A DNA stretch of 64,000 bases from Lentisphaerae bacterium GWF2_49_21 (lineage in GTDB: Bacteria > Verrucomicrobiota > Lentisphaeria > Victivallales > GWF2-50-93), in assembly GCA_001804805.1 (NCBI GenBank), contig MHBH01000026.1, positions 62,001 to 126,000 of the forward strand. Reading direction: 5' to 3'. Positions within the stretch are counted from its first letter, which is position 1. Every line of letters starts with the position of its first letter. The notes under the pieces are model-generated. The model was not told where the DNA came from. It did not search any database and saw nothing but the letters and a program-made list of their open reading frames with translations. A program made the translations under genes and the position numbers. Shown here in pieces: positions 44,738 to 53,082 of this stretch.

Positions 44738-44861
44738 TTAGGATGACTGTATAAAAATGAATTTGATTATCCTGTCAAAAATATTTAATTTATTATGATT
44801 TCCTGTCCGAGGGAAATCCCTGTGGCGGCTCTTGAATTCCCCATGCTGGGTTATATCTTTA

Positions 44862-44951
44862 TAGAACCTTTCCACCCGGCAAGTATTATCCGGGTAAAAA
44901 AACGTATGCTTCCGTTCAGTCGAGGACGGGAGGTCGTGAGGAAAGGTTCTA
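44862..44951 (+). ncRNA. Candidate structured leader RNA (three-way junction) upstream of PIG-L deacetylase
   Basis: P1 is a perfect 12-bp helix, TAGAACCTTTCC (44862-44873) with GGAAAGGTTCTA (44940-44951). It encloses P2, ACCCGG/CCGGGT (44874-44879, 44890-44895), and P3, CTTCCGT/ACGGGAG with one G-U pair (44909-44915, 44926-44932), joined by an A7 linker. The Shine-Dalgarno AAGGAAAGG begins right after P1, so pairing of P1 could influence translation. It matches no riboswitch family I recognise. The stretch is also an open frame by chance, but it shows no protein-family signal. Confidence 0.5.
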
Positions 44952-44968
44952 AGGAAAGGATTCACCAT

Positions 44969-45703
44969 ATGCAGGCATATAAGGAAGTGTCGGAGGAATT
45001 CCTGTCGAAACAGCGTCTTCTCGTGGTCTCCCCTCATGCCGACGACGAATCTTTCGGATGCGCCGGCACGATGGCCAAGGTAAAAAAGCTCGGTGGGGAG
45101 GTCTATGTCCTCGTGATGAGCGTCGGTGACCTGAAGCTCTACGACGGGAAGAAGGATGTCGTCAAGGGGACCACCCGCGAGGAGGAGTTCGCGGCTGTCG
45201 CAAAATTCCTCAAGCTGGACGGCTATGATATCTGGTACAAGGATCCCGAGACCCATCTCCGCCTTGACAAGATACCGCAGAGGGATCTCATCAACGTCAT
45301 AGAAAAAGAAAGCAAGGTTTCACTCGACAATATCAATCCGACCATGGTCGCCCTGCCGGCGATATCCTACAACCAGGACCATGTCGCGACGTTCAAGGCT
45401 GGATTCACCGCCTGCAGGCCGCACGACCCGAAGGTCAAGGCTTTTCCGAGAGTGGTGGTGAGCTATGACAACCAGACGCTTTTCTGGAATGTCGACTACG
45501 ACAAGTTCCATCCAAACCTCTATGTCGACATCAGTGATTTTCTGGACGTAAAACTCAAGGCACTGAGCCTGCATAAGTCCCAGCTGAGGCATTCCCCTCA
45601 TCACTGCAGCATAGAGAACATGGAATATCTGGCTAGGACAAGAGGACATGAAATTTCAGTCAAGGCCGCCGAGGCGTATGTCTGCCACAGGATGGTGCTT
45701 TGA
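44969..45703 (+). CDS. PIG-L/LmbE-family deacetylase
   Basis: 244 residues. SPHADDESFGCAGTMAKVK is the zinc-binding PHxDDE core (about residues 21-26), with HHC.IENMEYL near the end. The family removes N-acetyl groups from GlcNAc-containing molecules such as glycolipid or bacillithiol-type precursors. The ATG at 44969 has AAGGAAAGG shortly before it; the frame is open further upstream to 44795, but that part overlaps a candidate RNA structure. A Gfo/Idh oxidoreductase follows after a repeat element. Confidence 0.88.
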   Translation: MQAYKEVSEEFLSKQRLLVVSPHADDESFGCAGTMAKVKKLGGEVYVLVMSVGDLKLYDGKKDVVKGTTREEEFAAVAKFLKLDGYDIWYKDPETHLRLDKIPQRDLINVIEKESKVSLDNINPTMVALPAISYNQDHVATFKAGFTACRPHDPKVKAFPRVVVSYDNQTLFWNVDYDKFHPNLYVDISDFLDVKLKALSLHKSQLRHSPHHCSIENMEYLARTRGHEISVKAAEAYVCHRMVL

Positions 45704-45870: not shown

Positions 45871-45894
45871 AACATCAGTGAAAAGGAGTTGGAC

Positions 45895-46959
45895 GTGAGC
45901 GTGAATAAAAGCAGAAAGATCAGGAGTGCGATCATCGGCTGCGGAGTCATCGCACCGTCGCATGCCGACGGATATGCCAAGGCGGATGAAGTTGAAATCA
46001 CATGGGCCTGCGATATCGTCAAGGAAAAGGCCGAAAAACTGGCTGGAAAATTCAAGATTCCAAAGGTCAGCACGGATTTCAGGGAGGTGCTGGCGGATCC
46101 TGAACTGAACTGCATTTCCATCTGCACGGACCATGCGAGCCATTCAATGATCGCAGTTGAAGCCTTCAAGAGGGGGAAACATGTGATCTGTGAAAAGGCG
46201 CTTTCATCCACCCATCAGGGGCTTGAGAACATGATGGATGCACACAGGAAACACAAGGATCTGGTTTTCTCAGGCATCTTCCAGAACAGGTACAACAAGG
46301 TCTATCAGCTGGCCAGAAAGCTGATTTCGGAAAATACTCTTGGGACACTGCTGAAAGCCGACCTGCATGTGCACTGCATCCGGACCGACGCATATTATGA
46401 GGCGGACGAGTGGAGGGGCACCTGGGCCAAGGAGGGCGGTTCCCTCATGATAAACCAGGCGATCCACTTCGTTGACATCCTTGGATGGATTACTGGAGGG
46501 GTGAAGTATGTTTCCGGAACCTATGCAAACCTGACACATCAGAATTCCATTGAGACGGAGGATACCGCAGTGGCCTTTCTCAGGTTTTCAAACGGGGCGC
46601 TTGGCACGATATCAGCGACATCGTCAAGCCTTCTCAACTGGGACCAGTCAATTTATCTGAACGGCACAAAAGGCTCGCTGGAGCTTCGTGACGGGAAAAT
46701 CCTGAGGATTGAGCTTGAGAAGAAGGAACTTGCCGACGCGATAAGTTCGGACATCCAGAAGATCAACGATGAGGCGAAGGTCGCCGGTCCCGGAAAGACC
46801 TACTACGGCCCCAGCCACAGCTGTCAGATAGCAGACTTCATCGACAGCATCCGTTCCGGCAAGGAGCCTTTCATAACTGGTGAGTCCGCAAGACACGCAG
46901 TTGACATCGTGCTGGGAATCTACGAGTCCCACCGTGATAAGAAATGGGTCAAAATATAA
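45895..46959 (+). CDS. Gfo/Idh/MocA-family oxidoreductase
   Basis: About 354 residues. An N-terminal Rossmann fold (RSAIIGCGVIAPSHADGYAK) is followed by CEKALSSTHQGLENMMDAH (the E-K-P/A motif, Lys about residue 95) and a C-terminal alpha/beta domain with GGSLMINQAIHFVDILGWITGG, where the conserved His lies. These enzymes oxidise or rearrange sugars and inositols with NAD(P). A GTG start at 45895 is chosen because AAAGGAG lies 6 bases upstream; the in-frame TTG at 45889 overlaps that site. The radical SAM gene begins 21 bases downstream. The substrate is unknown. Confidence 0.9.
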   Translation: MSVNKSRKIRSAIIGCGVIAPSHADGYAKADEVEITWACDIVKEKAEKLAGKFKIPKVSTDFREVLADPELNCISICTDHASHSMIAVEAFKRGKHVICEKALSSTHQGLENMMDAHRKHKDLVFSGIFQNRYNKVYQLARKLISENTLGTLLKADLHVHCIRTDAYYEADEWRGTWAKEGGSLMINQAIHFVDILGWITGGVKYVSGTYANLTHQNSIETEDTAVAFLRFSNGALGTISATSSSLLNWDQSIYLNGTKGSLELRDGKILRIELEKKELADAISSDIQKINDEAKVAGPGKTYYGPSHSCQIADFIDSIRSGKEPFITGESARHAVDIVLGIYESHRDKKWVKI

Positions 46960-46980: not shown

Positions 46981-48354
46981 ATGCTCCTAATCGTCCCCCG
47001 TTTTAAATTATGGCTGTCTTTTCCTTCTCTTGGGGCTCTTTATATTGCAGCCCAGCTCCGGAAGAACAACTGCAAAGTTTCACTTGTCGATGCAAACTTC
47101 TTTTCAAAAGAGGCGTTCTACAGGAAGCTGGATGAAGAAATAAAGGAGCATGATACAGTCGGCATTACGGCAAATATTTCCCATGCCGCCTCCGGAATGG
47201 AGATTGCAGGATATATAAGGAAAAGATTCCCTGACAGGAAAATAATATGGGGAGGTCCTTATCCGAGCGCAGAATATGCGAAATTGCTTCCTGGACTTGC
47301 TGATATTGCCGTCATAGGAGAAGGCGAAAAGCAGATTTCACTTATCTCAGAGGGTAAAGAATACTGCGATATCCCCGGTATTGCCTACTTTGCAGACGGC
47401 AGGATCAAAGTCAATGAAAGGATTTCATTCATTGAGAATCTCGACGATCTTCCTTTCCCGGCCTGGGATCTGGTCAAGAACAACAGATATAATTTTCCCG
47501 GAAGAAAACCCGCCTTTATGCTGATTACCCAGAGGGGATGTCCTTTCAAGTGCATAAACTGTTCAACCTTCATGCATGGCAACATGTATCGATCAAGGAG
47601 CCCGGAGAATATTATAGAAGAGATGGAATTCCTTGTTCAGAATCATGGATGCCGTGAAATCCATATCTGGGACGATAATTTCACGCTCAATCCAGAAAGG
47701 GTGAAGAAGATCTGCAATGGAATCTTGAAAAAAGGACTGGAGAAGAAACTTCGTTTTGTACTCCCGAACGGGATAAGAGCTGACATTTATGACAATGAGA
47801 TGTTTGACATGATGAAAAGAGCCGGATTCTACCTTGTAGGCGTGGCCGTGGAATCAGGGGATCAGCAGGTGATAGACAAGATAGGAAAAGGTCTCAACTT
47901 GGGGAAGGTGCCGGAATTTGTCAGGAAACTCGATGAAAAAGGATTCAGGATAGCTCTGTTCTTCATGATGGGATTTCCTTTCGAGACTTTAGCTTCGATT
48001 AGGAAGACAATCGAATTCGCATCTTCACTTCCGGGACACCATGTCTATTTCTTCATCGTAACCCCGCTTCCTGGAACAGAACTATTTGAGATGGTCAAGG
48101 AGAAGCATGGTCTTGCAAGGAAATATGAGATTCAGACTGTTGACTATGAGGAAGATGTAAAAAGGTTTGACGTGCCTGAAATAAGCAATGAGGAACTCAC
48201 CAGCCTGCACAGGCTCGCATACCGGAAATTCTACCTGGATCCGAAGAGAATCTTAAGTATTTCCAAAGCCCTCATCAGGGACGGGGGATGGTTTTACGAC
48301 ACCTCTTTTATAATAAAGAACTTCTTCAATATGATATTCAGCGGACACCGATGA
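46981..48354 (+). CDS. B12-binding-domain radical SAM protein
   Basis: 457 residues. The N-terminal part is a cobalamin-binding-like Rossmann domain (FPSLGALYIAAQLRKNNCKV; IIWGGPYPS; ADIAVIGEGE), and the radical SAM cluster motif is RGCPFKCINCS (about 185-194, C-x3-C-x2-C). VESGDQQVIDKIGKGL and FFMMGFPFETLASIRKTIEFA follow in the barrel. Such enzymes perform methylations, ring changes or C-C bond formation. Its stop overlaps the start of a UbiA-like gene (ATGA), and a reductase of the geranylgeranyl type follows, so it probably modifies an isoprenoid or lipid. It lacks the canonical DxHxxG cobalamin motif, so B12 use is uncertain. Confidence 0.87.
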   Translation: MLLIVPRFKLWLSFPSLGALYIAAQLRKNNCKVSLVDANFFSKEAFYRKLDEEIKEHDTVGITANISHAASGMEIAGYIRKRFPDRKIIWGGPYPSAEYAKLLPGLADIAVIGEGEKQISLISEGKEYCDIPGIAYFADGRIKVNERISFIENLDDLPFPAWDLVKNNRYNFPGRKPAFMLITQRGCPFKCINCSTFMHGNMYRSRSPENIIEEMEFLVQNHGCREIHIWDDNFTLNPERVKKICNGILKKGLEKKLRFVLPNGIRADIYDNEMFDMMKRAGFYLVGVAVESGDQQVIDKIGKGLNLGKVPEFVRKLDEKGFRIALFFMMGFPFETLASIRKTIEFASSLPGHHVYFFIVTPLPGTELFEMVKEKHGLARKYEIQTVDYEEDVKRFDVPEISNEELTSLHRLAYRKFYLDPKRILSISKALIRDGGWFYDTSFIIKNFFNMIFSGHR

Positions 48355-49136
48355 TAAAATCACTTATGAAATCAAGGATTGTCGAGCTCTTGTTTGGAAC
48401 TGGAATCCCGCTGGTTGGATTCGCATGCGCAACCAAAGGCATTGAAAATCTGGCAGACCTATACTGGTTCTACGCCTTTCTGCTTCTGACAGGATGGCAT
48501 GTCCTTGCGGTGAATGACATCTGCTTTGACAGGAAAAGCTTCAGGTTTTCCATAAAATATTTTCCGCCTCTTGTCATGGCTCCTGCAATCCTGCTTTATT
48601 TTTCCACACAGAAACCTGTCTTTGTGCTGATCCTGTTCCTCATAATAATAAATTGGAATATTTATTCCGTCTACGGGAAATACAACTGGCTTACAGGGAT
48701 GTTCCATAACTTCTCTGGAGGAGTACTGCATTTCCTGGCAGGGGTGGCGGCCGCAGGATGCACTGACATGTATCAATATTCCGCGCAGGCGCTGTTTTTC
48801 GGATTCGCAATGCTCTCAGGGGCGATGCATCACGATGCCTGCCACAGTTCGGAAGATATGGAACGGGATTACAGGACGGGAGCAGTTGTTTTCGGCAAAC
48901 GCATCTGGTGGAGGCTCGGCATCATGCCGATGATTGCCGGAATAGTATTCCTCCTGTGCACAAAAGATATGCCGTTCATGTTCTGTTTTTGCTTCTCTTC
49001 CTCCTTGTATCTTATCATGTATTCGGCCGTGAACACATGGAAATTAAATAACGGCATGCTTTATTTCAGAATACTTTGCCGCCTTGCGTTCGCAACCGGT
49101 GCGGTGGCGTATATAGCCTTGAGACTATTAAAATGA
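48351..49136 (+). CDS. UbiA-like prenyltransferase family membrane protein
   Basis: 261 residues with about eight hydrophobic segments. The second Asp-rich motif is recognisable (SEDMERDYRTGAVVFGKR, about 166-183, D-x3-D-x3-G), but the first reads NDICFDRKSF (about 55), one residue out of step with the usual NDxxDxxxD. Fold and length fit UbiA enzymes, which attach prenyl chains to aromatic rings, porphyrins or glycerol phosphate. The start overlaps the radical SAM stop, and the FAD reductase begins 9 bases after its stop. The degenerate first motif makes activity uncertain. Confidence 0.7.
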   Translation: MIKSLMKSRIVELLFGTGIPLVGFACATKGIENLADLYWFYAFLLLTGWHVLAVNDICFDRKSFRFSIKYFPPLVMAPAILLYFSTQKPVFVLILFLIIINWNIYSVYGKYNWLTGMFHNFSGGVLHFLAGVAAAGCTDMYQYSAQALFFGFAMLSGAMHHDACHSSEDMERDYRTGAVVFGKRIWWRLGIMPMIAGIVFLLCTKDMPFMFCFCFSSSLYLIMYSAVNTWKLNNGMLYFRILCRLAFATGAVAYIALRLLK

Positions 49137-49145
49137 GTTGATCAA

Positions 49146-50153
49146 ATGCCTGATTATAAAAACATTCTTCCGGAAAGCGATTTCACCGTCGTCGGCGCCT
49201 CTTTTGCAGGAAGCCTTCTTGCGTCAAAACTCGCCCCATATGGAAAAGTCCTTCTGATTGACAGGATCCAGCCTGGGACGAGGCTTAAGTGCGGAGGCGG
49301 TGTCCGCGCGAAGGAGTTTGAAAGACTAGGACTTGATATTCCACATGTGAAAGTTGACAGGATTCTGATGGTCGAGAAGGACAAGAGTTGTAGATTCAAT
49401 TCCAAGTATGTCGTCGTGGACAGACGGGAGCTTGATGCGGCAGTTTTAAAGAAGGCACTTGCTGCGGGAGCGGTTTTCCACAAGGCCGGATATTTTTCGC
49501 ATCAGACTGCGGAAAATATAATGAATGTCAATATTGGAGCGGAGACGGTTGAGTATAAATATAAGAAACTAATTCTCGCGAATGGCTTCAATCCCTGTAC
49601 TGGGGGAAAATTCTACGGGTCCAGCTATGTTGAAATAGTGGAAAGCAGGAGCAGGCATGAAGATGCCCTGTATTTCAAGCTTCTCGATAACACTGTCGGT
49701 TACTGCTGGATGTTCCCATTGCCTGATGGGCGGGTGAACATCGGTATTGGCTCTCTTTCAGGAGAACCATTCTCCAGGGATGATTTCAGAAGGTTCAAGG
49801 AGGAGCAGGGCATAACCGGCAAAGTCGTCTGCAGAGGAGGAGGAATGATTCCACTTCTCCCGTCAACATCTGTCATGAAAGGGAATGTCTATTTTTTCGG
49901 AGATTCGGCCGGAATGGTCTTTTCCGCAAACGGAGAGGGGCTTAGGAACATTATCAAAATGAGCGATATCTGGACCGATTGCATTGTAAAAGGGAAGAAT
50001 CTGAATATTAGGTGGATGACAAACAGGACTTTTATTCGGCTGTTAATCAGCGCCATGGTGGTTAAAACAATATCTTCAACAGGGAAATCCGGCAGCAAGA
50101 TTTATAATCTTCTCAGCCGGACTGCCGCATTTGCAAGGAGTTGCCTACAATGA
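49146..50153 (+). CDS. Geranylgeranyl reductase-like FAD oxidoreductase
   Basis: 335 residues. FTVVGASFAGSLLASKLAPYGKVLLIDR is the FAD-binding Rossmann start (a slightly altered GxGxxG: GASFAG). KCGGGVRAKEFERLG and VDRRELDAAVLKKA are typical of the geranylgeranyl reductase family, and VYFFGDSAGMVFSANGEGLRNIIKMS is the GD motif with a GGR-like G-E-G. It may saturate an isoprenoid chain made or attached by the UbiA-like protein. Tryptophan halogenase-type or other group A flavoenzymes are alternatives. It overlaps the next gene by 4 bases. Confidence 0.8.
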   Translation: MPDYKNILPESDFTVVGASFAGSLLASKLAPYGKVLLIDRIQPGTRLKCGGGVRAKEFERLGLDIPHVKVDRILMVEKDKSCRFNSKYVVVDRRELDAAVLKKALAAGAVFHKAGYFSHQTAENIMNVNIGAETVEYKYKKLILANGFNPCTGGKFYGSSYVEIVESRSRHEDALYFKLLDNTVGYCWMFPLPDGRVNIGIGSLSGEPFSRDDFRRFKEEQGITGKVVCRGGGMIPLLPSTSVMKGNVYFFGDSAGMVFSANGEGLRNIIKMSDIWTDCIVKGKNLNIRWMTNRTFIRLLISAMVVKTISSTGKSGSKIYNLLSRTAAFARSCLQ

Positions 50154-51361
50154 TGGAAAATACTTTTGAACTGGAAATTACCGATATCGCCTTTGGCGGA
50201 AACGGACTCGGCAGGAAGGACGGCTTCGTCTATTTTGTCCCTGGTACTCTGCCAGGCGAACTTGTCCTTGTAGAGGAAACACTCAGGAAAAAGAACTTTG
50301 GAACCGCGAGGCTCCTCGAAATCCTGCGAAGTTCGCAGAACAGGATCCCTCCGGCCTGCCCTCTGGCTTATGCTCCGATCAAAAATAATAAAAGCACCCT
50401 TGGGTGCCCCGGGTGCAGTTACCAGCATGTGAAATATGAGGAGGAAGTCCAGATCAAGAACACGCATCTGGCGAATTTCATCAAGCACAATCTCAAACTG
50501 GATCCGGCCACAGTCATGGATGCACCTGTGCCTTCACCGAAGGATTTGAACTACAGGAACAAGATAGTCCTGCATTTATTGGAGGATAAGCTTGGATATT
50601 TTGCCGATGACAATATAAGCATCGTCGAAGTCGAAAACTGTCCATTGGCTGCATCTGAAATAAACCTGAAGCTTCCAGAGATCAGAAGGAACCTCGAAAA
50701 ATATTCCGCATGCTCCGACATTACCTTCAGATACACCGCGAAAAGCAAAGTTCAGTTCTGGGGCGACAACAGGTCGGAGGGAACGGTTCTGGAGGAGGGG
50801 ACATTCTTTGGCGTGCTTGAAGTCCCGAGAGGGAGCTTTTTCCAGGTGAACATGAAATGCGCGGATCTTCTTGCCGAGGAAGCCGTGAAGATGATCAAAG
50901 GTTCAAAGGCATGCAAGCTTGCAGATCTCTACTGCGGATGCGGATTCTTCAGCATTACCGCAGCAAAGTCCGGACTTGAATCCGTTGTCGGCGTCGACAG
51001 CGACCATAAGACCATTGAATCTGCCGTAAAGAACGCTGCAAAGCATGGACTTGAAAGTAAATGCAGTTTCTCCGCAAAAAGCGCAGAAGCTTTCATAACA
51101 GAAAATTCGCGCAAACTGAAGACAGATGAAACTGTCCTTCTTCTTGATCCTCCGCGTGGCGGGCTCAGCCAGAAGCTGAAGAACCAGCTGATTTCGACCG
51201 GAGCCAAGAAGATAATCTATATTTCCTGTGCTCCAGACATGATGGTGCGTGACATGAAACTGCTATGCGAATGCGGATTCAAGCTAAAAAAGGCCCGTCT
51301 CTTCGACATGTTCCCGCGGACTTCGCACTTCGAGACGATTGCCTATCTGGAGAAAATTTAG
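50150..51361 (+). CDS. TrmA/RlmD-family RNA (uracil-5-)-methyltransferase
   Basis: About 403 residues. An N-terminal TRAM-like domain (ELEITDIAFGGNGLGRKDGF) is followed by a cysteine cluster segment (CPGCSYQHVKYEEE, about 86-99) and a SAM-binding domain (LADLYCGCGFFSIT). DPPRGG (about 333) precedes the catalytic nucleophile IYISCAPDM (Cys about 359), and MFPRTSHFE ends the protein. It methylates U54 of tRNA or uracils of 23S rRNA; the subfamily is not decidable by eye. AAGGAG lies 9 bases before the ATG. It overlaps the reductase upstream, probably coincidental to the isoprenoid genes. Confidence 0.93.
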   Translation: MMENTFELEITDIAFGGNGLGRKDGFVYFVPGTLPGELVLVEETLRKKNFGTARLLEILRSSQNRIPPACPLAYAPIKNNKSTLGCPGCSYQHVKYEEEVQIKNTHLANFIKHNLKLDPATVMDAPVPSPKDLNYRNKIVLHLLEDKLGYFADDNISIVEVENCPLAASEINLKLPEIRRNLEKYSACSDITFRYTAKSKVQFWGDNRSEGTVLEEGTFFGVLEVPRGSFFQVNMKCADLLAEEAVKMIKGSKACKLADLYCGCGFFSITAAKSGLESVVGVDSDHKTIESAVKNAAKHGLESKCSFSAKSAEAFITENSRKLKTDETVLLLDPPRGGLSQKLKNQLISTGAKKIIYISCAPDMMVRDMKLLCECGFKLKKARLFDMFPRTSHFETIAYLEKI

Positions 51362-52017: not shown

Positions 52018-53082
52018 ATGAAATTCAACAAGAAGAAAATCGTATATGCAATCATGGCTCTTCTTGTCTTTATCCCGGCACTTCTCGTCCTGTTTTTCCT
52101 CCTCTACACACCCAGCCCGTCTGAAATAACGCTTTCTGGCGATAGTGCCAGGATGGGCGAAACGTTTGGCAGAGAGACAGGATTCAGGACGAAGCTCATC
52201 TTGAGATACTACATAAAGAGCTTCATCTGCCAAGGCAGTGATAAGCTCTACGATCTGCGCAAGCAGAAGGCGCTGGAAAAGACAAGGTTCCTTACTGCTG
52301 AATTTCAGGAAGAGATGAAGGCTATAAGCAAACGCAGTGGAATTGATCCTGGCGCAATTGCATATGGGAATTCCTTCCTTGACATGGGAAACTATTCCGG
52401 GGGATGCAGGAGCGTAGTTGTTTCAGAAAAAGACAGTTTTCTGCACAGCCATAATCTTGACTGGGACAACATAGCTGGTTTGGCAGGCTGGACAACCATG
52501 ATTGTCAGGAGGAATCCTTCTGACGGCAGATGTCGGACAGTTTCAATAGGCTTTTCCGGTATGATAGGCGCTCTTGATGTCATTAATGAAAAAGGGATAG
52601 CAATGTCATTCAACCAGCTGGGATTTGGTAATGGAAATTATACGGAACCGGTCTTCATTATGCTCAGAAGGATTTGCGAGAATTCCTGTAGTTTCAATGA
52701 AGCCAGGGAGAAAATATTAAAAGCATCAGAGGGGATGCCTTTCATTATAACATTATCTGATGCAAATTCCGGAGAGGCGTCTGTCTTTGAAAGGACTAGG
52801 GGAGGGAATGAGATAGCGGAAAGAAAAATGAAAGGAAGATGCATTGGAGCCATGAATCTTGCACAAGCGGACAGTTCAAAGGAGAGCGTCCTTGATCAGT
52901 CATTGTCAGGAGCTGTCCCAAACGGTGTTGAAGGTTTGAAAAGGATATTGTCGGAGAAGAAAGTCATGATGGACTCAAACATCTACAGCGTAATATTTGA
53001 TTTCAAAAGCAACAGTCTTTATCTTGCCTCTGGCGAAGTTCCTGCAGCAAAAGGGACTTACAGGAAGTATAAATTGTTCTGA
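52018..53082 (+). CDS. Membrane-anchored C45/NTN-hydrolase-like protein
   Basis: 354 residues. An N-terminal membrane anchor (IVYAIMALLVFIPALLVLFFLLY) is followed by a C45 acyl-CoA:6-APA acyltransferase/acid ceramidase-like region. YSGGCRSVVVSEKD (about 124-137) carries the presumed N-terminal nucleophile Cys, LHSHNLDWDN the conserved NxDW element, and IGFSGMIGALDVINEKGIAMSFNQL the next strand pair. GGC as autocleavage site is inferred. Such enzymes hydrolyse amide bonds or lactams. It faces the periplasm if the anchor is correct. The substrate is unknown. Confidence 0.75.
   Translation: MKFNKKKIVYAIMALLVFIPALLVLFFLLYTPSPSEITLSGDSARMGETFGRETGFRTKLILRYYIKSFICQGSDKLYDLRKQKALEKTRFLTAEFQEEMKAISKRSGIDPGAIAYGNSFLDMGNYSGGCRSVVVSEKDSFLHSHNLDWDNIAGLAGWTTMIVRRNPSDGRCRTVSIGFSGMIGALDVINEKGIAMSFNQLGFGNGNYTEPVFIMLRRICENSCSFNEAREKILKASEGMPFIITLSDANSGEASVFERTRGGNEIAERKMKGRCIGAMNLAQADSSKESVLDQSLSGAVPNGVEGLKRILSEKKVMMDSNIYSVIFDFKSNSLYLASGEVPAAKGTYRKYKLF

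Follow-up and report, generated by a model that had tools for sequence, protein, structure and literature searches.

A radical SAM, UbiA, and GGR-like gene trio in a Lentisphaerae genome is probably a fragment of a larger, dispersed gene set that may act on lipid-linked sugars

The window, which is the whole stretch of 64,000 nucleotides analyzed here (G000:C26:62001-126000, within a 5.9-Mb assembly), contains a trio of intact genes on the same strand (+) that code for a B12-binding radical SAM enzyme, a divergent UbiA-type membrane protein, and a flavoprotein of the geranylgeranyl reductase (GGR) superfamily (Table 1). The open reading frames at 46981-50153 were confirmed, as were the predicted junctions: the radical SAM and UbiA genes share an ATGA overlap at 48351, a 9-bp gap (49137-49145) separates the UbiA and GGR-like genes, and the GGR-like gene shares an ATGA overlap at 50150 with a gene for an RlmD-like protein, which, although overlapping, is probably outside the pathway discussed below. 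The assignment of the trio to these enzyme families was likewise correct. The gene set extended upstream of the trio to the genes for a PIG-L family protein and a Gfo/Idh/MocA oxidoreductase.

Table 1. Genes of the trio and its flanks, in window coordinates
Product	Position	Strand	Remarks
PIG-L family de-N-acetylase	44795..45703	+	Pfam PIG-L 58.6 bits, cut-off 28.2
Gfo/Idh/MocA sugar-type oxidoreductase	45889..46959	+	Pfam GFO_IDH_MocA
B12-binding radical SAM enzyme	46981..48354	+	457 aa; motif CxxxCxxC (CPFKCINC)
Divergent UbiA-type integral membrane enzyme	48351..49136	+	261 aa; profile and fold match, motif analysis
GGR-superfamily flavoprotein	49146..50153	+	335 aa; GYCWMFP and KCGGG motifs
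RlmD-like 23S rRNA methyltransferase	50150..51361	+	NCBIfam rumA 224 bits, cut-off 183.6 exceeded

All 6 genes were present in identical order (PIG-L, Gfo/Idh, radical SAM, UbiA, GGR, RlmD), with the overlap retained, in a second genome of the same genus (G001), which is apparently that of Lentisphaerae bacterium GWF2_50_93. The protein identities between the two genomes were 60%, 70%, and 76% for the trio and ranged from 60% to 93% across the whole six-gene stretch, and the nucleotide differences were mostly located in third codon positions. Since the order and the overlap have been kept and the differences concentrate in third codon positions, the locus is more than a chance arrangement, and its genes are, as judged from these sequences, under purifying selection.

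The UbiA protein scored 31.8 bits (E = 1.1e-7) against the Pfam profile PF01040, slightly under the gathering cut-off of 34.2 bits, which was exceeded by its distant relatives in G241 (92.7 bits) and G206 (65.4 bits). A structural model, as suggested in the original prediction, had a pLDDT of 90.2 and gave 7bpu as the top PDB match (TM 0.70, E = 4.8e-4); according to this model, the protein has a UbiA fold. The closest solved relatives were archaeal (7bpu and 4tq3), and the match to the phosphoribosyl-type enzyme 8j8j had a TM value of 0.60. The window protein matched no prenyltransferase model in NCBIfam, and a role as a menaquinone, haem, or ubiquinone enzyme was rejected for want of such a match. 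The first Asp motif (NDxxDxxxD) had been described as atypical, and this was found to be real and family-wide: only N55-D56 was invariant, while the Asp residues at +4 and +8 were not kept in the group. In the region of the second motif (DxxxD), the pattern (H/D)xxED...TGAV.F was kept and the second Asp, D169, was invariant, with Asp in some members and His in others at the first position. Furthermore, K110 was conserved across the group.

Among 149 relatives searched, the UbiA protein was identified in 10 genomes. When about 85,000 species were scanned with two peptide patterns, which very divergent members would escape, only 9 loci were obtained, all in metagenome-assembled genomes of Lentisphaerae, Kiritimatiellota, or Verrucomicrobia. 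One additional member (G149) was found in a search at the class level and three remote relatives in a search at the phylum level, and plasmid searches with the UbiA and GGR proteins gave no matches. The genes for the remote relatives adjoined or were located near genes for large multi-pass membrane proteins (L136:7956-13175 in G206, L137:6977-10710 in G241, and L138:2554-6197 in G342), and the locus in G206 also contained a Caroten_synth gene. A profile comparison gave no support for homology of these membrane proteins to the GT-C glycosyltransferase that accompanies UbiA (see below), and they were therefore not used as evidence. It was also noted that the only other UbiA gene found in the genome (L066:4544-10407, G000:C10) coded for an EboC/SCO3242-like protein with the motif NDIADYATD and was located near another PMT_2 GT-C gene.

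A recurrent neighbor of the UbiA gene was a gene for a GT-C glycosyltransferase of about 600 amino acids, which was located directly upstream in 7 of the 10 other carriers (G004, G005, G006, G012, G142, G147, and G149), usually with an overlapping and otherwise with an abutting junction. The gene order was radical SAM, GT-C, UbiA in G006 and PHP-like protein, PIG-L, GT-C, UbiA in G149; in G007 it was PIG-L, radical SAM, GT-C, with the UbiA gene at the start of another contig. The radical SAM gene overlapped the GT-C gene in both G006 and G007 and was linked to the gene set in four genomes. In the window genome, the genes for the GT-C and PHP-like proteins lie outside the window, at a distance of 88 kb in the downstream direction on that contig (C26:198120-201658). 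The GT-C protein encoded there scored 30.8 bits against PMT_2, exceeding the cut-off of 26.1 bits, and the Asp of the first outer loop was invariant among the GT-C proteins. A model of moderate confidence (pLDDT 69) had a fold that matched oligosaccharyl- and mannosyltransferases and a C-terminal domain that was beta-rich and OB-like. GT-C enzymes of the PMT/ArnT type use polyprenyl-linked sugars.

Orthologs of the PIG-L protein with identities of 66% to 95% were present in 10 of the 149 relatives, after which the identity fell sharply to 35%. Homologs begin at the position corresponding to 44969, which is probably the true start. In the window, the PIG-L gene precedes the radical SAM gene with one gene in between, and it adjoins the radical SAM and GT-C genes in G007 and the PHP-like, GT-C, and UbiA genes in G149; in most carriers it stands by itself. 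The PHP-like membrane protein had a similar distribution to PIG-L and weakly resembled the CehA/McbA metallohydrolases. As read from the sequence, the usual metal-binding His residues appear to have been lost in these proteins (L134:9988-11493 and L112:10112-11659), which have internal transmembrane segments and are possibly non-catalytic. The best NCBIfam match of the Gfo/Idh/MocA protein was inositol 2-dehydrogenase (139.9 bits, under the cut-off of 355 bits); its gene was kept in place in G001 and seen only in the genus of the window, and whether it belongs to the pathway is uncertain.

Co-occurrence was strongest for the UbiA, PIG-L, and PHP-like proteins. Across the 149 relatives, and with presence counts that ignore phylogeny and include several genomes that are 72% to 90% complete, UbiA and PIG-L shared 9 genomes (Jaccard 0.75), UbiA and the PHP-like protein 9 (0.69), and PIG-L and the PHP-like protein 10 (0.77), and the values for UbiA were 0.55 with the radical SAM enzyme and 0.43 with GGR. 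A control gene of the window for an acyl-CoA:6-APA acyltransferase-like protein (AAT, 52018-53082), which was present in 14 of the 149 relatives in a patchy distribution unlike that of the UbiA set, gave values of 0.17 to 0.25. It is likely that the real unit is larger than three genes and only partly inside the window, and the trio is probably one piece of a more extensive set of genes that is restricted to the lineage and dispersed in the genome.

The GGR-like protein matched Lycopene_cycl (26.5 bits) and GGR_cat (19.6 bits) in Pfam and GG-red-SF (TIGR02032) in NCBIfam, the latter at 95.3 bits and under the cut-off of 158.8 bits. The motifs G-Y-x-W-x-F-P and C49-x-G-G (near FAD) were invariant in 10 sequences. 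Close orthologs were found in 10 of the 149 relatives, including four without the UbiA protein (G002, G019, G030, and G103), and four UbiA carriers had no close GGR (G004, G005, G142, and G147). No other member of the set was present in G002 and G103, and only the GT-C and PHP-like proteins were present in G030. As judged from this distribution, GGR is the loosest partner of the gene set. Its gene was linked to the UbiA and radical SAM genes only in the genus of the window (G000 and G001).

Such a pattern could mean that three functionally separate enzymes are chance neighbors in one genus, with GGR as a stand-alone polyprenyl phosphate or quinone reductase, and it agrees with this that G002 has retained GGR alone at the equivalent syntenic position and that the GGR gene is located beside recA, grpE/dnaJ, or aroE in G006, G007, and G019. 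We consider this explanation unlikely, since the UbiA-GT-C and radical SAM-GT-C links recur in several genera and the radical SAM, UbiA, and GGR proteins pairwise share 6 genomes. The original prediction had also named an outcome in which the three proteins belong to separate pathways, such as menaquinone or haem synthesis, with no conserved linkage. This outcome was not obtained. What we observed was a conserved linkage of UbiA, but to GT-C and PIG-L and not to GGR.

The closest solved relatives of the GGR-like protein were the archaeal GGRs 3oz2 and 3atq, and together with the archaeal relatives of the UbiA protein they would fit the synthesis of archaeal-type or other di-prenyl ether lipids, with UbiA as a DGGGP-synthase-like enzyme and GGR saturating the chains. 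Like the archaeal ether lipid pathway (GGGPS, DGGGPS, and GGR) and its proposed counterpart in bacteria of the FCB group, the locus encodes members of the UbiA and GGR superfamilies. However, none of 15 genomes contained a GGGP synthase (PF01884) that scored over the cut-off, although 7 of 14 control genomes were positive, and an archaeal ether lipid cluster was rejected on this basis. With the non-canonical first motif of UbiA and no steady UbiA-GGR linkage, di-prenyl ether lipids are a very unlikely product, and the archaeal-type lipid logic originally read into the trio, which is adjacent in G000 and G001 only, was not supported. A study of archaeal-lipid genes in FCB bacteria makes no mention of the bacterial groups of the window.

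The radical SAM protein contained a Radical_SAM domain (81.5 bits) and a B12-binding domain (46.7 bits), both over the Pfam cut-offs, and the presence of both domains and of the CxxxCxxC motif places it among the B12-binding radical SAM enzymes. Membership in a named family is claimed only for this superfamily, for the UbiA fold, and for the GGR superfamily. Close orthologs were identified in 7 of the 149 genomes and not, at the set threshold, in G005, G012, G142, and G147. In three genomes, a paralogous B12 radical SAM gene was directly followed by a PMT_2-type GT-C gene (L116:8841-11524 in G000:C73, L117:8071-11094 in G001:C92, and L118:7341-10000 in G007:C15), and the locus in G007, where the pair lies beside nucleotide-sugar genes, also contained genes for a C-methyltransferase, a GDP-mannose-dehydratase-type protein, and a GT4 protein. 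These pairs show that radical SAM genes of this type are found in association with genes for GT-C enzymes and for sugar metabolism.

In NCBIfam, the radical SAM protein matched HpnJ (TIGR03471) best, which brings to mind the HpnI/HpnJ/HpnK pathway to the bacteriohopanetetrol cyclitol ether, where a glycosyltransferase, a B12-type radical SAM enzyme, and a sugar de-N-acetylase are encoded in a single operon and the order of the reactions has been published (PMC12583986). By this logic, UbiA and GGR would make a prenyl lipid to which an amino sugar is added, PIG-L would deacetylate it, and the radical SAM enzyme would contract the ring to a cyclitol ether; the linkage of the PIG-L and radical SAM genes in three genomes is consistent with this. 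However, the score of 182.6 bits is far under the HpnJ cut-off of 577.6 bits, and in a tree of radical SAM proteins the 7 orthologs formed a clade of their own with support values of 100/100, apart from HpnJ and BchE. Orthology to HpnJ was rejected on the score and the separate clade. PIG-L belongs to another family than HpnK, a UbiA protein is involved here, and several carriers of PIG-L and UbiA had no detected radical SAM ortholog, and we regard a hopanoid-like route as quite unlikely. The only candidate obtained in a search for hopanoid cyclases was a divergent squalene-cyclase-like protein, present in 6 of the 12 genomes. This squalene-hopene-cyclase-like protein of about 600 amino acids (L189:3726-9314 in G000:C9, also L190-L194) contained DxDDT in 5 of 6 cases. 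Its gene in G000:C9 was located near a further radical SAM gene and a gene for a polyprenyl-synthase-like protein that is considerably extended at its N terminus; in G025 its neighbors were a methyltransferase and a GT4 gene, the homologs of which flank the PHP-like and GT-C genes in G000.

There is documented precedent for a UbiA-GT-C pair that makes and uses a lipid-linked pentofuranose (PMC11127046), and for hopanoids it is documented that lipid-bound glucosamine is acted on in succession by a de-N-acetylase and by a radical SAM enzyme (PMC12583986). From these precedents and the type of the GT-C enzyme we therefore infer a pathway for a lipid-linked (amino)sugar. Our preferred reading, which we hold tentatively and at a little under an even chance, is that this pathway is lineage-restricted, dispersed in the genome, acts at the cell surface, and serves a GT-C enzyme. 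Its core would be the variant UbiA, the PMT/ArnT-type GT-C, the PIG-L deacetylase, and the PHP-like membrane protein. The GGR-like reductase would provide lineage-specific tailoring, as would the radical SAM enzyme. The present data show the identity, conservation, linkage, and co-occurrence of the genes and the loss of motif residues, and all of the reactions, the substrates, and their order are inferred and may be as follows. At the cytoplasmic face, UbiA would couple a sugar or a similar head group to a polyprenyl (phosphate), PIG-L would take off an N-acetyl group, the carbon skeleton of the sugar or lipid would be changed by the B12 radical SAM enzyme, and the GGR-like enzyme would saturate part of the prenyl chain, after which the product would be flipped and used by the GT-C enzyme to glycosylate an extracytoplasmic acceptor.

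In its mode of operation, the lipid-linked sugar pathway would best be compared to a three-component GT-C glycosylation system to which further tailoring enzymes have been added. In the extracytoplasmic pentofuranose systems (Citrobacter youngae ORF12/14/15; mycobacterial DPPRS with Emb/Aft), as here, a UbiA-fold enzyme is encoded with a GT-C that has a C-terminal soluble domain (PMC11127046), and the gene set could on this resemblance be a true member, with UbiA as a polyprenyl-phosphate phosphoribosyltransferase (DPPRS/PPPRS). However, replacement of the N, D, D, and D residues of the first motif impairs the function of C. youngae ORF15 (PMC11127046), and the window UbiA keeps 2 of these 4 residues; the Asp residues at +4 and +8, equivalent to D251 and D255, which are important in PPPRS, are not conserved. 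There was no match to DPPRS models among those listed, nor to the sequence of 8j8j, and a DPPRS assignment was rejected on the first motif and the profile comparison. True membership is thus highly improbable. Furthermore, the Lentisphaerae set adds PIG-L, the PHP-like protein, the B12 radical SAM enzyme, and GGR, and neither a flippase nor a phosphatase was identified for it.

Several observations argue against the lipid-linked (amino)sugar pathway. The UbiA protein is structurally nearer to archaeal DGGGP synthase (TM 0.70) than to 8j8j (TM 0.60) and lacks the two Asp residues needed by the phosphoribosyl type, PIG-L stands alone in most carriers, the radical SAM enzyme was absent at the set threshold from the four genomes named above, GGR has housekeeping neighbors elsewhere, and the presence counts ignore phylogeny and include many incomplete genomes. 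For the UbiA substrate, fold and profile lean toward the archaeal prenyltransferases, whereas the gene context leans toward a sugar donor.

A more specific form of the lipid-linked sugar reading is possible but doubtful. The UbiA proteins would form a new subfamily in which the first Asp motif is replaced by a single N-D, and their product would be a polyprenyl-linked amino sugar or cyclitol. It would be tailored by PIG-L, a polyprenyl reductase, and the B12 radical SAM enzyme and delivered by a dedicated GT-C, in an undescribed surface glycolipid pathway specific to Lentisphaeria-related Verrucomicrobiota. If the lipid-linked sugar reading is right, UbiA chemistry would extend to enzymes that lack the classic first Asp motif, and a little-studied phylum would have a lineage-specific envelope lipid or glycan. 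The genes for UbiA, GT-C, PIG-L, the PHP-like protein, the radical SAM enzyme, and GGR would then be the set to seek beside lipidomes of Lentisphaerae and Kiritimatiellota.
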